Both the position numbers and the translations under genes were made by a program. DNA of 64,000 bases from Collybiopsis luxurians FD-317 M1 (taxonomy: Eukaryota > Basidiomycota > Agaricomycetes > Agaricales > Omphalotaceae), in contig KN834788.1 of the NCBI GenBank assembly GCA_000827265.1, positions 124,001 to 188,000 of the forward strand, read 5' to 3'. Under the pieces are notes generated by a model that was not told the DNA's origin, ran no database searches, and saw nothing but the letters and a program-made list of their open reading frames with translations. This document shows, in pieces, positions 14,135 through 19,829 of this stretch (its first letter is position 1; each line of letters begins with the position of its first letter).

Positions 14135-17100
14135 ATGAATACTTCAAACGGTACCTCCGAATACTCCGCTGGTTTCACAACCCCGTTGTCCTCAGACTTG
14201 GGGGTTGGTCTATCTGAAGATATCGCTATCATTGGCAGTGAGTGATTCTATCATTATAAGTCCTCTCTTCTCTCCATGTTAGAAGCGGCCAAACTGCCTT
14301 CTCTGACATCTGGGTACTACTTATACACTTGGCTTTAACCCAATCATTTGAGTCGAACGAGTCCTAACACCTACTTTTTCCAGTGTCCTGCCGAACTGCT
14401 GGTGGGAATGATTCCCCCGAGAAGTTGTGGCAATTCTTATTAGATAAGAGGAATGCTTCTGGAGAAGTTCCTCAATGGCGCTGGGAGCCGTGGTTGCGAC
14501 GAGATGTCCGCAATGCAAAGGAAATTAAGAAGACTCTTTCAAGGGGATACTTTATCGAAGACCTAGAAAATTTCGACGCTGCATTTTTTGGTATCTCTCC
14601 AAAGTAAGTTCGAACATCTCATACCCTCTTTACGATCTTCTTCCTCATTCACGGGGAAGGATTCGGGTCCGTACGCCTATATATTTCAAACTCATTCTGA
14701 TTCCTTTGTATAGGGAAGCTGAACAAATGGATCCTCACCAACGTCTAGGCCTCGAACTGAGTTGGGAAGCCTTGGAAAACGCCGGAATTGATCCCAAAAG
14801 TCTTGCAGGCTCGACCACAGCCGTCTTTATGGGTGTTGACTCGGATGACTACTCTCGCTTACTGCTTGAGGATCTTCCTAACCTCGACGCATGGATGGGC
14901 ATCGGCACAGCACCCCATGGTATTCCTAATCGAATCTCCTACCACTTGGATCTTATGGGACCTAGCACCGCAGTCGATTGTGCTTGTGCTTCTTCCCTTA
15001 CTGCCATACATTTGGGATGTAAGGCCATCGCCAACAACGAGTCCAAAGTTGCTATTGTAGGTGGTGTTAATGTGCAACTCGCACCGGCGATGACGCACAT
15101 GTTGGGCAGAGCAGGTGTGCTCTCTCCTGAAGGTATATGCCGCTCGTTTGATGATGAAGCCAATGGTTACGGTCGCGGCGAAGGGGGTGGGGTTGTGATC
15201 CTGAAAAATTTTGCTGCTGCTCTAGCCGATGGAGACAATATCCTTGCTCTCATCCGAGGAAGTGCTTTGGCTCAGGATGGAAAGACCAATGGTATCATGG
15301 CTCCTAATTCAAAGGCTCAAGCTTTGGTTGCCAAACAAGCATTGGAGCGAGCAGGTTTTGATCCCCTTTCAGTCTCCTTCATCGAACTTCATGCAACTTC
15401 CACCGCCGTTGGCGATCCTACCGAGATCTCCGCAATTGAATCCATCTATGGCGCAGGTGCTGGCAGAGGCCCCGGCAACCCAGTAATGATAGGCTCCGTC
15501 AAGCCGAATGTCGGTCATTTAGAGGCCGCTGCAGGTGTTATCGGACTTGTGAAGACAGTACTCGCCGTAAACAAGGGACAATTAGCGCCGCAGACTCTTC
15601 TTAACAAGCTTAATTCGCGAGTAGACTGGGAAAAGTCTGGTCTGCGTGTTGTCCGGGATATAATGGACTGGCCAAATGACATCAGACCCAGAAGAGCTGC
15701 GGTCTGCTCATACGGTTATGGTGGCTCGGTTTCTCATGCTGTCGTAGAGGAATTTATTGGTGGGACTTCGTTCCCAAATTTTGTAGAAAGGCAGGCTTCA
15801 ACCGCGGGGCCTACTGTTCTCGTGCTCTCGGCTCAGCAGGAAAAGAGGTTGGCGATACAGGCCACAATCCTGGCGGAATGGCTCTCGTCTCCTGCTGGAA
15901 AGACTGAAGATCTGAATGCAGTTGCAAACACTCTGGCTCAACGTCGTGCCCACCACGATTATAGAGTTGCATTGGTTGTTAATAACCACGAAGAGGCTAT
16001 TGAATCACTCAACAAGTTCGCTGCTGGGACCCAAGACAACACCGACATCCCATCGTCGGGGCGAGTGTTGAATGATAGCACCGGTTTATCGAGACATGCC
16101 GTCTGGGTATTTTCAGGTCATGGCGCTCAGTGGACCAACATGGGGAAGGAGTTGATCCATAAACCTATCTTCCGCCAAGCCATCGATTTATTAGAGCCCA
16201 TATACCAGGTTGAAGCTGGATTTTCCCTCATCGTTGCTCTTGAAAACGGTGACTTTGACAGCTCCGAAAGAGTTCAGACCGTCACTTACGCCATCCAAAT
16301 TGGGCTCAGCGAGGTTCTCAAATCGATTGGGGTTCATCCTCGGGCGATCATTGGTCACTCTGTGGGAGAGATTGCAGCTTCGGTTGTTGCTGGTTGCCTA
16401 ACCGCTGAAGAAGGTGCATTAGTGGTGATCCGAAGAGCCAAACTCTATGCACGAGTACAGGGACTCGGGGGAATGGCACTAGTTAATCGTCCATTTGATC
16501 AAGCCAAGGAAGATCTCGGAGATCGAAAGGATTTGGTTGTTGCCATTGACTCTTCACCCTCCACCTGCGTAGTTAGTGGTGAAGAGGCAGCAGTGGCGAA
16601 GTACGTCGAGGATCTTAAGGCTCTTGGCGTCAAGACCTTCCGCGTCAAGACAGATGTTGCCTTTCACAGTCCTATGCTCGACCAACTTTCTGAGCCTCTC
16701 AGACAGGCTTTGGCTGATTCTCTCTATCCTCGTCCAGCTCAGATCCCTCTCTATTCGACTTCCAACAGCAACCGGAGGACAAGGGAGACGCGAGACGTTG
16801 AATACTGGGTCCATAATATGGTCAGCCCTGTCCATCTCAAATCAGCTGTCACTGCCGCCGTGGAAGACGGCTATCGCATTTTCATGGAGGTATCGTCCCA
16901 CCCAATTGTTTTACATTCAATCGATGAAACATTGGTTTCACAAAACCTGGCTGAGAATGAGTTTACGACTATCCCCACCATGAAACGAGGAGATTCAGCA
17001 ATCAAGAGCATTATGAGCACCGTAACACAATTATACTGCAAGGGCGTTCACATTAATTTCGAAGAGCAGCTTGGTCCCAAGCAATTTTGGTCCAAGAACG

Positions 17101-19829
17101 TTCCCCTCACACCGTGGGTTCACAAGCCATTTTGGAAACACGTAGAAACAGGCCCACTAGGTGAAGGCATGACTCACGATGTAGAAAAGCACACTCTACT
17201 CGGTCAACGAGTTGCCGTCGCAGGTACAGATACAGTTGTGTACACAACTAAACTTGACGAGAAGACTAAGCCTTTCCCTGGAACTCATCCTCTACATGGA
17301 ACGGAGATTATTCCGGCCGCTGTCTATATCAACACATTCCACTATGCAACTGGAGGTACGGAGTTATCTAATATCAGCTTGCGCATCCCTGTCTCCTGTA
17401 AGTCACAAACTTCGTCAAGGTTGTTAAATTTCTAAATATTTAGCACAGTCGGTGCTGAAACTCGGAACGTACAAATAATTGTGCAAGGCGATGCAATCAG
17501 TGTTGCCTCTAGTGCAGCTTCGGAGGCAGATAATCCCAATCGAACTTGGGTATCCCATAGTTCAGCTAAATGGACTATATCTCCTGAAACTATAGACGTT
17601 GACCAGCCATTCGACATTGATTCCATCAAGAAGAGGATTGGTATCCTCTTGCCAAACAACTTCTCTGTGGATTACCTTACCAGTATTGGGGTGACCGGAA
17701 TCGGTTTCCCATGGCAAGTCATTGAGCACTATGGCAATGAGAAGGAAATGATTGCTAAAGTCGATCTGGACCCAAGTTCCGAGAAACTCACTTGGGACGA
17801 GTACTCATGGGCGCCCATACTTGATGCCGCAACGTCGGTGGGATCTACGATCTTCTTCCGTGATCCTAGATTGCGTCTCGTCTCTAATATCGATAAGGTC
17901 AATCTCTATTCAGCTGAACCTATTCCCAAGATTGGTTATCTGTACGTCGAGGCTGTGGATGATACCAAGGGACCGACTACCCACGTCAGCATCCTTAACG
18001 AGCAAGGACTTCTGTTAGCCAAGTTCACGTCCATGCGATTTGCCGAAGTGGAAGGTGCCAGCGGAACTGGAGGTGGTGTGGATAGTCTCGTTCATCAAGT
18101 CTCCTGGATTCCTCCCAAATTTTCGGAAAAGCCGCGCGCAATGAACCAGGTAGTTCTGATCTCAACGCGGTCAGAAATCCAGGCAGAATATGCCACACAG
18201 CTAGGACCTCAAACTAGGATCTTTAGTTTGAATAGTGCGGAAGAGCTGGAGGCGTGTTCCGACATTTTAACCGCTCTAAGTGAGCAGGGTAGCGCTGTCA
18301 TCTACATTCCAGATTCTGTCGACTCCCTTGAAAAGGTGCCTGCGGCTTCCAAAGATTATATTTGGCAGACGACCAGCATAGCCAAACTCCTCATTGAAAA
18401 ATCCCTCACCTCGACTTGCAAACTTTTTATATTCACTGATCGCGTATACGCTGGTGAGAATGCAACAGGACTTTCTCAGAGTGCTCTTCACGGTCTTGGT
18501 CGCATTATTGCTTCTGAACATCCGGATGTTTGGGGAGGCTTGATCGATATGGAGTTCCTTTCTATGTTCCCATCTTTGGTGGTGAAATACGTTCAGAATT
18601 ACGACGTAATTCGTTTCATCGACGGAATGCCACGACGAGCCATTATGCGACCTCTATCCAGAGATCAGCGCTATACGCCTCAGAATGCCAAAACGCTTCT
18701 TCCTCGAGCTCAGGGAACTTATGTGATTACAGGAGGTTTTGGAGAATTGGGTCTCGAAACTATCAACTTCTTGATAGCGAAAGGTGCTCGCCGTATCGTG
18801 GTGGTGTCCCGCAGTGGACTCCCTCCTCGCAATACCTGGCCAAGTCGCGCTGCCACTGATACTAAATTTGCAACCTTGATTAGCTCGATTGAGGAGTTCG
18901 AGCGTTCGGGTGCTACCATCTACGCTTTACAGCTAGATATATCCGCTCCCAGTGCATCGGACGATTTGCTAAAGGCACTGGATAAATTTTGCCTCCCCCC
19001 AGTCCTCGGTGTAATCCATGCAGCAGGAGTACTAGACGACAACCTACTTCTACACACTAGTCGAGATTCCTTCGGTCGCGTTTTGGCACCTAAGATTGAT
19101 GGAGCTCTTGCTCTACATAGCGCATTCCCTCCAGGCACTTTGGACTTCTTTATTCTTTTCTCCAGCATCGGTCAGCTCGTTGGGATTACAGGTCAAGCAT
19201 CTTACGGCTCTGGAAACGCTTTCCTTGATGGACTGGCGCTGTATCGTCGTACTCACGGCGACAACGCTGTTGCTTTCCAATGGACTTCCTGGCGCGGTAA
19301 AGGCATGGCAACGGGCGAATTTTCAATGCTGGAAGTGCATAGCAAGGGAATCACTGATATCTCTACCGAGGAAGCTTTCCGCGCATGGGAGCATATCGGA
19401 AAGTTCGATATTGAGAGCGCTGTAGTGACACGATGTCTCCCCGTTGACGAAGGCGAGGAGGTACCTGTGCAGATACTCGAACAAGTCGTTGTGCGCAGAA
19501 CTAGATCTAGTGCTTCCACTAGTGAGGAGTCTGGTCACGATAATTCGGCTAATGCGCGCCCCACGTCTCCGGCTGAGCTGGAAAAATGGCTCAATATCAA
19601 GATTCGGGAGTGCATTTGCGCGGTTCTAATGATACCCGATATCGACGAGATTGACCCCGTTGTACCTTTGGCAGAAATGGGCGTTGATAGTGTCATGACA
19701 GTGGCGCTCAGACAAAAGCTACAATCTGCACTAAAGGTGAAGGTTCCTCCGACCTTGACGTGGAATCATCCAACTGTTAATCACCTCGTTCCGTGGTTCA
19801 CGTCGAAGTTCAAGGAGTTATCAGATTAG
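14135..19829 (+). CDS. 6-methylsalicylic acid synthase-type PKS, 1795 aa
   Basis: Four exons (14,135-14,237; 14,384-14,603; 14,714-17,397; 17,449-19,829) give 5388 nt in frame. The N-terminal ketosynthase has its active Cys at about residue 199 in DCACASS, HATSTAVGDPTEI instead of HGTGT, and NVGHLEAAAG. The acyltransferase follows with GHGAQW and nucleophile Ser ~656 in GHSVGE. The hotdog TH/DH domain has HPLHGTEIIPAA with His ~969. The ketoreductase has TGGFGELG at ~1430 and Tyr ~1588 in YGSGN. The ACP carries the phosphopantetheine Ser ~1750 in GVDSV. There is no methyltransferase, enoylreductase or C-terminal thioesterase. Order, length and motifs match fungal 6-MSAS, which builds a tetraketide from acetyl- and malonyl-CoA with one NADPH reduction; 6-methylsalicylate is the expected product by family, not shown here. 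All catalytic motifs are intact. Intron 3 uses the second acceptor (CACAG), because the first breaks frame. Confidence 0.93.

Follow-up and report, generated by a model that had tools for sequence, protein, structure and literature searches.

A 64,000-nucleotide window of the Collybiopsis luxurians FD-317 M1 genome (contig KN834788.1, positions 124,001 to 188,000; coordinates below are those of the window) contains an intact polyketide synthase (PKS) gene at 14135-19829 on the forward strand. A preliminary description of the window had assigned this gene to the 6-methylsalicylic acid synthase (6-MSAS) type in a genome that looked like that of a basidiomycete, as its source proved to be, and had proposed two histories for it, an old horizontal acquisition or a little-studied basidiomycete lineage. 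Our analysis favours the first. With a probability of about 0.83, the ancestor that Collybiopsis has in common with Lentinula received an intact, stand-alone, partially reducing PKS from an ascomycete close to Amphisphaeriales. Phylogenetic trees and full-length approximately unbiased (AU) tests point to the acquisition and leave the vertical lineage less supported. The gene would have passed from the ascomycete (Sordariomycetes) into the mushroom ancestor before the two genera split, and would then have been kept as a stand-alone gene in both. Amphisphaeriales as the donor is the best placement from the protein comparison, not a certainty.

Phylogenetic placement of the PKS

The best 120 of 7679 protein matches were compared with the query, many of them without an organism name. 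Basidiomycete names were found on eight of these rows, namely C. luxurians itself and seven Lentinula rows from six species, and the other named rows are, as we assume from the genera, ascomycetes. The closest matches listed came from Lentinula, the shiitake genus (74-75% identity to the query for P0002, P0003 and P0005), which like Collybiopsis belongs to the Omphalotaceae; C. confluens is in the database and had no match among the 120 listed (many of these being nameless). The closest non-mushroom relatives listed were uncharacterised 6-MSAS-type PKSs of Amphisphaeriales, i.e., Pseudomassariella vexata P0008, Neoarthrinium P0009, Truncatella P0011 and Seiridium P0016, at 62-70% (69-70% for Pseudomassariella, 63-64% for Neoarthrinium and Truncatella). 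Three Lentinula rows were 73% identical to P. vexata, whereas the identity of P. vexata to either Neoarthrinium or Truncatella was only 68%. Lentinula is thus nearer to Pseudomassariella than Pseudomassariella is to species of its own order, which supports a transfer and requires no rooting.

In a FastTree tree of the 120 rows, the query and its Lentinula orthologues (P0002-P0007 and P0010) formed one clade with a support of 100, although the C. luxurians end branch was longer (0.29). The mushrooms and the four Amphisphaeriales rows, which differ in host phylum, made one clade (99). It lay within a larger clade of 46 rows, in which no other row bears the name of a basidiomycete. A rooted tree of 37 rows was calculated using IQ-TREE with the C20 model and three bacterial homologues as the outgroup. 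The nine-row group of mushrooms plus Amphisphaeriales was supported at 98 and the 21-row group at 100, and in a bacteria-rooted tree of 24 rows the values were 100/100 for the mushrooms, 96/93 for a seven-row group and 100/100 for a 14-row group. Both full-length rooted trees placed the mushroom clade deep within the ascomycetes, mainly Sordariomycetes. When the 18 ascomycete (or unnamed) rows were forced together over the full length, the log-likelihood was 25.6 lower and the constrained tree was rejected (p-AU 0.005); rejection was also obtained with 19 rows after the fast C. luxurians row was left out (24.8 units lower, p-AU 0.0068). The full-length protein is therefore nested in the donor group while the tree with the recipient outside is rejected, a combination that neither the ketosynthase (KS) domain nor the region from acyltransferase (AT) to acyl carrier protein (ACP) gives alone.

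Several points weigh against a transfer. Monophyly of the ascomycetes was not rejected with the AT-ACP region alone (p-AU 0.067) or with the KS alone (p-AU 0.567). The KS-domain phylogeny, which had been proposed as the check on the origin of the gene, kept the mushrooms in a 16-row, mainly Sordariomycete set (97/90), but it put them beside Trichoderma (92/86) and is too weak to decide by itself. The bacterial outgroup branches are very long, which makes the root a weak point. Furthermore, the comparison covered few Omphalotaceae and, outside C. luxurians, was made on proteins.

These KS and AT-ACP results would agree with vertical descent, according to which the last ancestor common to both phyla, ascomycetes and basidiomycetes, already had a 6-MSAS-type PKS that has persisted in a few mushrooms. 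Other basidiomycete candidates exist. In the available text of the respective reports, PpPKS2 of Phlebopus portentosus is called a 6-MSA (6-methylsalicylic acid) candidate and is compared with genes of Gymnopilus, Rickenella and Streptomyces pactum (PMC12028679), TgPKS2 of Taiwanofungus is another such candidate (PMC11678574), and a 6-MSA-type PKS was suggested by similarity in Tricholoma vaccinum (PMC7910269). Nevertheless, vertical descent is improbable, being rejected by both full-length AU tests and opposed by the Lentinula copies, whose identity to P. vexata exceeds that of P. vexata to Neoarthrinium and Truncatella. It is also at odds with Schmitt and Lumbsch (2009), where, in the portion available, the family is inferred to have entered ascomycete fungi from actinobacteria (PMC2636887).

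Slightly less probable still is a transfer in the reverse direction, from a mushroom to Pseudomassariella and its relatives. The unresolved trifurcation of Pseudomassariella, Neoarthrinium/Truncatella and the mushrooms would allow it, but the whole group lies within the 21-row clade, otherwise ascomycete or unnamed, and within successively deeper ascomycete groups, and a reverse transfer would still require a prior one from ascomycetes to mushrooms. Ascomycete contamination of the assembly is suggested by the best named matches outside Omphalotaceae being ascomycetes (among the 120 of 7679 listed) and can be practically dismissed, as the gene is embedded in a 510-kb contig whose dispersed repeats recur in other contigs, P0001 (the deposited C. 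luxurians PKS protein) and P0202 (the glucose-6-phosphate dehydrogenase, G6PD, of the window) are both on records of C. luxurians with a length of 512,989 bases, the named relatives of this G6PD are presumably all Agaricomycetes (judged by genus), and six Lentinula species have the gene, with proteins that group with the query at 100.

In a search mainly of open-licence literature, no report of an ascomycete-to-Omphalotaceae transfer of this PKS was found, nor any work on polyketides of Collybiopsis luxurians. Papers connecting Lentinula with 6-methylsalicylic acid had no title that concerned a Lentinula gene, and text on Omphalotaceae polyketide synthases did not mention the present one.

Gene structure and domain organization

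The gene consists of four exons encoding 1795 amino acids plus a stop codon (Table 1). Every GT-AG or GC-AG pair within fixed ranges about the three interruptions was tried, which gave eight open models, and the one with the donors listed in Table 1 was chosen. Splice modelling in this way bore out the coordinates, the intactness and the three small introns given in the preliminary description. Over 98% of its length, the translated product matches P0001 of strain FD-317 M1 with 100% identity. Exon 1 is missing in P0001, which starts 34 residues later, but this extra first exon is backed by the aligned Lentinula N-termini (EDVAIVGMSCRTAGGN). Precisely at the site of intron 3 of the query, 17 residues are inserted in the L. 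edodes protein deposited as P0005; the insertion looks like the same 51-nt intron retained in translation (17 residues equal 51 nt). In the Lentinula model P0004, four additional residues occur at the intron 1 junction. Because of these two features, introns 1 and 3 are probably common to Collybiopsis and Lentinula. The insertion in P0005 and the absence of the first exon from P0001 are likely annotation errors.

Table 1 Coordinates of the PKS gene, its domains and neighbouring features in the window
Feature	Position	Strand	Basis
PKS exon 1 (residues 1-34)	14135..14237	+	Splice modelling; supported by Lentinula N-termini
Intron 1 (146 nt, donor GTGAGT)	14238..14383	+	Splice modelling
PKS exon 2	14384..14603	+	Splice modelling
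Intron 2 (110 nt, donor GTAAGT)	14604..14713	+	Splice modelling
PKS exon 3	14714..17397	+	Splice modelling
Intron 3 (51 nt, donor GTAAGT), within DH/TH domain	17398..17448	+	Splice modelling
PKS exon 4 with stop codon	17449..19829	+	Splice modelling
KS domain (residues 28 to about 455; Cys in DCACASS, HATST, NVGHLEAA)	14216..15755	+	Pfam PF00109, PF02801; motifs
AT domain (GHSVGE, AFHS)	16101..17021	+	Pfam PF00698; motifs
Dehydratase (DH)-like/thioester hydrolase (TH) domain plus interdomain	17190..18161 (right end approximate)	+	Pfam PF21089, residues 934-1018
Ketoreductase (KR) domain	18714..19295	+	Pfam PF08659
ACP (GVDSVM)	19599..19790	+	Pfam PF00550; motif
Exon of an NmrA-like oxidoreductase, nearest oxidoreductase domain found upstream (distance about 12.8 kb)	1012..1353	+	Pfam
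DUF6699, nearest downstream open reading frame with a named domain over cut-off	22406..23014	-	Pfam
Protein kinase exons, downstream flank	23150..24177	-	Pfam
Dispersed-repeat block, 56 matching stretches at 69-98% identity elsewhere in the genome	24862..31400 (right end provisional)	.	Genome comparison

Pfam gave the order KS, acyltransferase, PKS_DH_N, KR and PP-binding, and thioesterase, enoyl reductase and methyltransferase were absent from the 11 families found in the protein. The architecture is a single KS-AT-DH(TH)-KR-ACP module, which agrees with the domain order and the lack of a thioesterase noted before. HATST occupies residues 334-338, the KR motif YGSGNAF is present, and the TH motif HPLHGTEIIPAA lies at residues 966-977 (about 17286-17321). 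The first His of its HPLHGT part corresponds in the alignment to His972 of P0170 from Aspergillus terreus, a protein that we take to be ATX by its name and residue number only. The TH histidine of ATX is His972 (PMC4797705, in the text available). The best-scoring solved structures were bacterial type I PKSs and covered the KS-AT part.

By its sequence, the enzyme is a partially reducing, 6-MSAS-type PKS, which corrects the earlier comparison with non-reducing enzymes. An orsellinate synthase or a highly reducing PKS was rejected as its identity. The query stood among 6-MSAS-type homologues in trees that included no non-reducing or highly reducing PKS. Among the best candidates scored in the 64.3-Mb genome, P0001 had 21 matches, two of them to its own gene and the remaining 19, all partial, to further PKS stretches with 22-49% identity, so that no grouping with the orsellinate or highly reducing kind appeared and a single copy of the gene was found.

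A pseudogene was likewise rejected. The other 66 rows agree without exception at 266 alignment columns, of which only three were changed in the query, compared with a maximum of five and a median of zero in other rows, which gives no evidence of relaxed constraint or decay. Five indels of one or two residues distinguish the query from L. aciculospora, L. edodes and Pseudomassariella together. No foreign base composition was detected either: the GC content at third codon positions is 0.47 in the coding sequence, against 0.43, 0.46 and 0.54 in single exons of neighbours, and a value unremarkable for the window is expected if the acquisition is old.

The C. luxurians KS shows a deviating motif at residues 331-345 (about 15380-15430), where it reads IELHATSTAVGDPTE and all ten other rows shown have EAHATST; in comparison with L. 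edodes, IELHATSTAVGD stands against IEAHATSTPLGD. Together with the longer branch, this change may indicate a shifted KS pocket in C. luxurians.

Predicted reaction and product

By homology with the 6-MSA and mellein synthases, the AT would load malonyl units and the one KS would condense them iteratively on one ACP. The KR would reduce only some of the keto groups, and the chain would fold into one aromatic ring. In place of a thioesterase, the TH region, which is DH-like, would assist in release; a role of this region in release is discussed for 6-MSAS and ATX in the available part of PMC4797705. Activity and the reduction programme are inferred by analogy with these enzymes.

The gene had been credited with every diagnostic 6-MSAS feature. 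While the 6-MSAS type stands, the domain order, HATST and the TH histidine are also found in the mellein clade, HATST in 19 of its 19 rows, and none of them is diagnostic for 6-MSA synthases. Proteins named 6-MSA synthases in databases (A. terreus P0170, A. clavatus P0193 and Penicillium vulpinum P0199) have the same Pfam domains in the order KS-AT-DH/TH-KR-ACP and share HATST, the TH histidine and the ACP motif GVDSVM with the query. The same Pfam domains occur in P0065 of Parastagonospora nodorum, a mellein synthase by its database name; the mellein-synthase gene of Parastagonospora was proposed as a candidate in a 2014 survey (PMC4205913, as far as its text was available). The query is 55% identical to the mellein-synthase row and 54 and 57% to two rows of the 6-MSA synthase clade.

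It belongs to neither clade. In all three trees it lay outside the Parastagonospora mellein synthase clade (separate at 100). It was also outside the Aspergillus/Penicillium 6-MSA synthase clade and on its sister branch: in the 37-row tree this clade was supported at 97 and the 28-row branch including the query at 99, and in the 24-row tree the values were 93/85 for the 6-MSA synthase clade (Aspergillus only) and 99/99 for the 18-row branch with the query. There are 48 columns that are fixed differently, under a 90% rule, in 26 rows of the 6-MSA synthase clade and 19 rows of the mellein clade. At these columns the query is mellein-like in 25, 6-MSAS-like in 14 and neither in nine, and in the DH/TH it is mellein-like at seven of nine. 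Mean identities to mellein and 6-MSAS rows, respectively, are 71.6 and 65.6 for the KS and 62.6 and 59.3 for the KR (69.0 and 59.3 for the KR of a Lentinula copy), and those of the AT and DH/TH are about equal. The Xylaria hypoxylon row P0035 lies within the 46-row FastTree branch of the query. Derivatives of mellein were present in cultures of X. hypoxylon (PMC8403587, in the part available), and P0035 may be connected with these compounds.

The TH motif points the other way. In the 6-MSAS clade it is HPLHGTEIVPAA in 22 of 26 rows, with P as residue 2 in 25 of 26, whereas residue 2 in the mellein clade is Q, K, R or E and P in none of 19 rows. The query and its group have P at this place, as 6-MSAS rows do. 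The hotdog motif that had been listed among the 6-MSAS features is indeed nearer to the 6-MSAS form than to the other, but the exact string HPLHGTEIIPAA occurs in none of the 66 other rows. The lean towards mellein is lowered because the TH motif count favours the 6-MSAS form, and the shared residues may in any case reflect ancestry rather than function. All 21 non-query Lentinula, Amphisphaeriales and other intermediate rows have HPLDGTEIIPA (HPLDGT in four of four Amphisphaeriales and four of four Lentinula). As this form of the query's group matches neither the 6-MSAS nor the mellein form, the group may represent a third kind of enzyme. Where those 21 rows have Asp, C. luxurians has His, like the 6-MSAS clade.

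Judged from these residues and identities, a mellein-type dihydroisocoumarin is slightly preferred as the product, at less than even odds; 6-methylsalicylate follows as a somewhat less probable candidate, and another compound is the least probable of the three. It is accordingly somewhat less likely than not that the transferred gene is a plain 6-MSA synthase. Such an identity would suit the shared domain order, the conserved TH histidine and KS motifs, the TH motif beginning with HPL and the database name 6-methylsalicylic acid synthase of its relatives, yet database names follow similarity, and the clade position, the discriminating columns and the nearness of KS and KR to the mellein clade disagree with it.

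Genomic neighbourhood

The window is part of a contig of 510,612 bases. Twenty-eight of the 30 open frames with at least 85 amino acids that lie within 5 kb of the gene were scanned, and none of these 28 contained a biosynthetic-enzyme domain over the Pfam cut-off. The PKS is a stand-alone gene with no tailoring genes that would make a biosynthetic cluster in these 28 flanking frames, as the preliminary description had it, and the NmrA-like exon (Table 1) is too distant for a cluster partner. A small frame at 20835-21092 gave an aldolase-family match below the Pfam cut-off (E 0.005) and lies in a stretch (20835-21264, i.e., 20.84-21.26 kb) with a single 70% counterpart at another genome site.

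A transposon block had been described about 5 kb beyond the gene, and dispersed repeats are indeed found there: 56 of the 57 matching stretches begin at or after 24.86 kb, 5.0 kb downstream of the stop codon. An alpha-kinase-like open reading frame at 25554-26030 overlaps part of a repeated stretch in this composite block. Upstream, diverged multicopy stretches occur near 5.3-6.3 and 7.9-8.8 kb. The latter (7900-8800) shows an exon-like pattern of matches at 65-89% identity to dozens of genome sites, and the three frames scanned there contained no Pfam domain.

The G6PD gene of the window (54819-56700, reverse strand) is a diverged paralogue. It is 99% identical to C. luxurians P0202, 73% to a second copy in C. 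luxurians whose record is likewise 512,989 bases long, 65-69% to further copies of C. luxurians, C. confluens and Crassisporium, and mostly 55-60% to other listed Agaricomycete enzymes. The copies represent a housekeeping enzyme that has expanded in a lineage-specific manner.

Implications

The enzyme is of a known kind, and the probable inter-phylum transfer, if confirmed, is the new part. Given the actinobacterial entry of the family into ascomycetes described in the accessible text of PMC2636887, the passage from an ascomycete to a mushroom would be a second leg. A complete relay from actinobacteria through ascomycetes to the ancestor of Collybiopsis and Lentinula, delivering a stand-alone gene for a mellein-type lactone, 6-MSA or a product of a third branch (HPLDGT), can be suggested tentatively, at odds somewhat short of even. 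Caution is required in naming such genes, since neither the database name 6-methylsalicylic acid synthase nor HATST separates 6-MSA synthases from mellein synthases. Lentinula and Collybiopsis provide a pair of relatives for a direct test of product and expression. If confirmed, the case would mean that a complete pathway encoded by one gene had moved between phyla into mushrooms, among them a genus cultivated for food (shiitake), and would help to explain the scattered occurrence of 6-MSAS-type enzymes in basidiomycetes.

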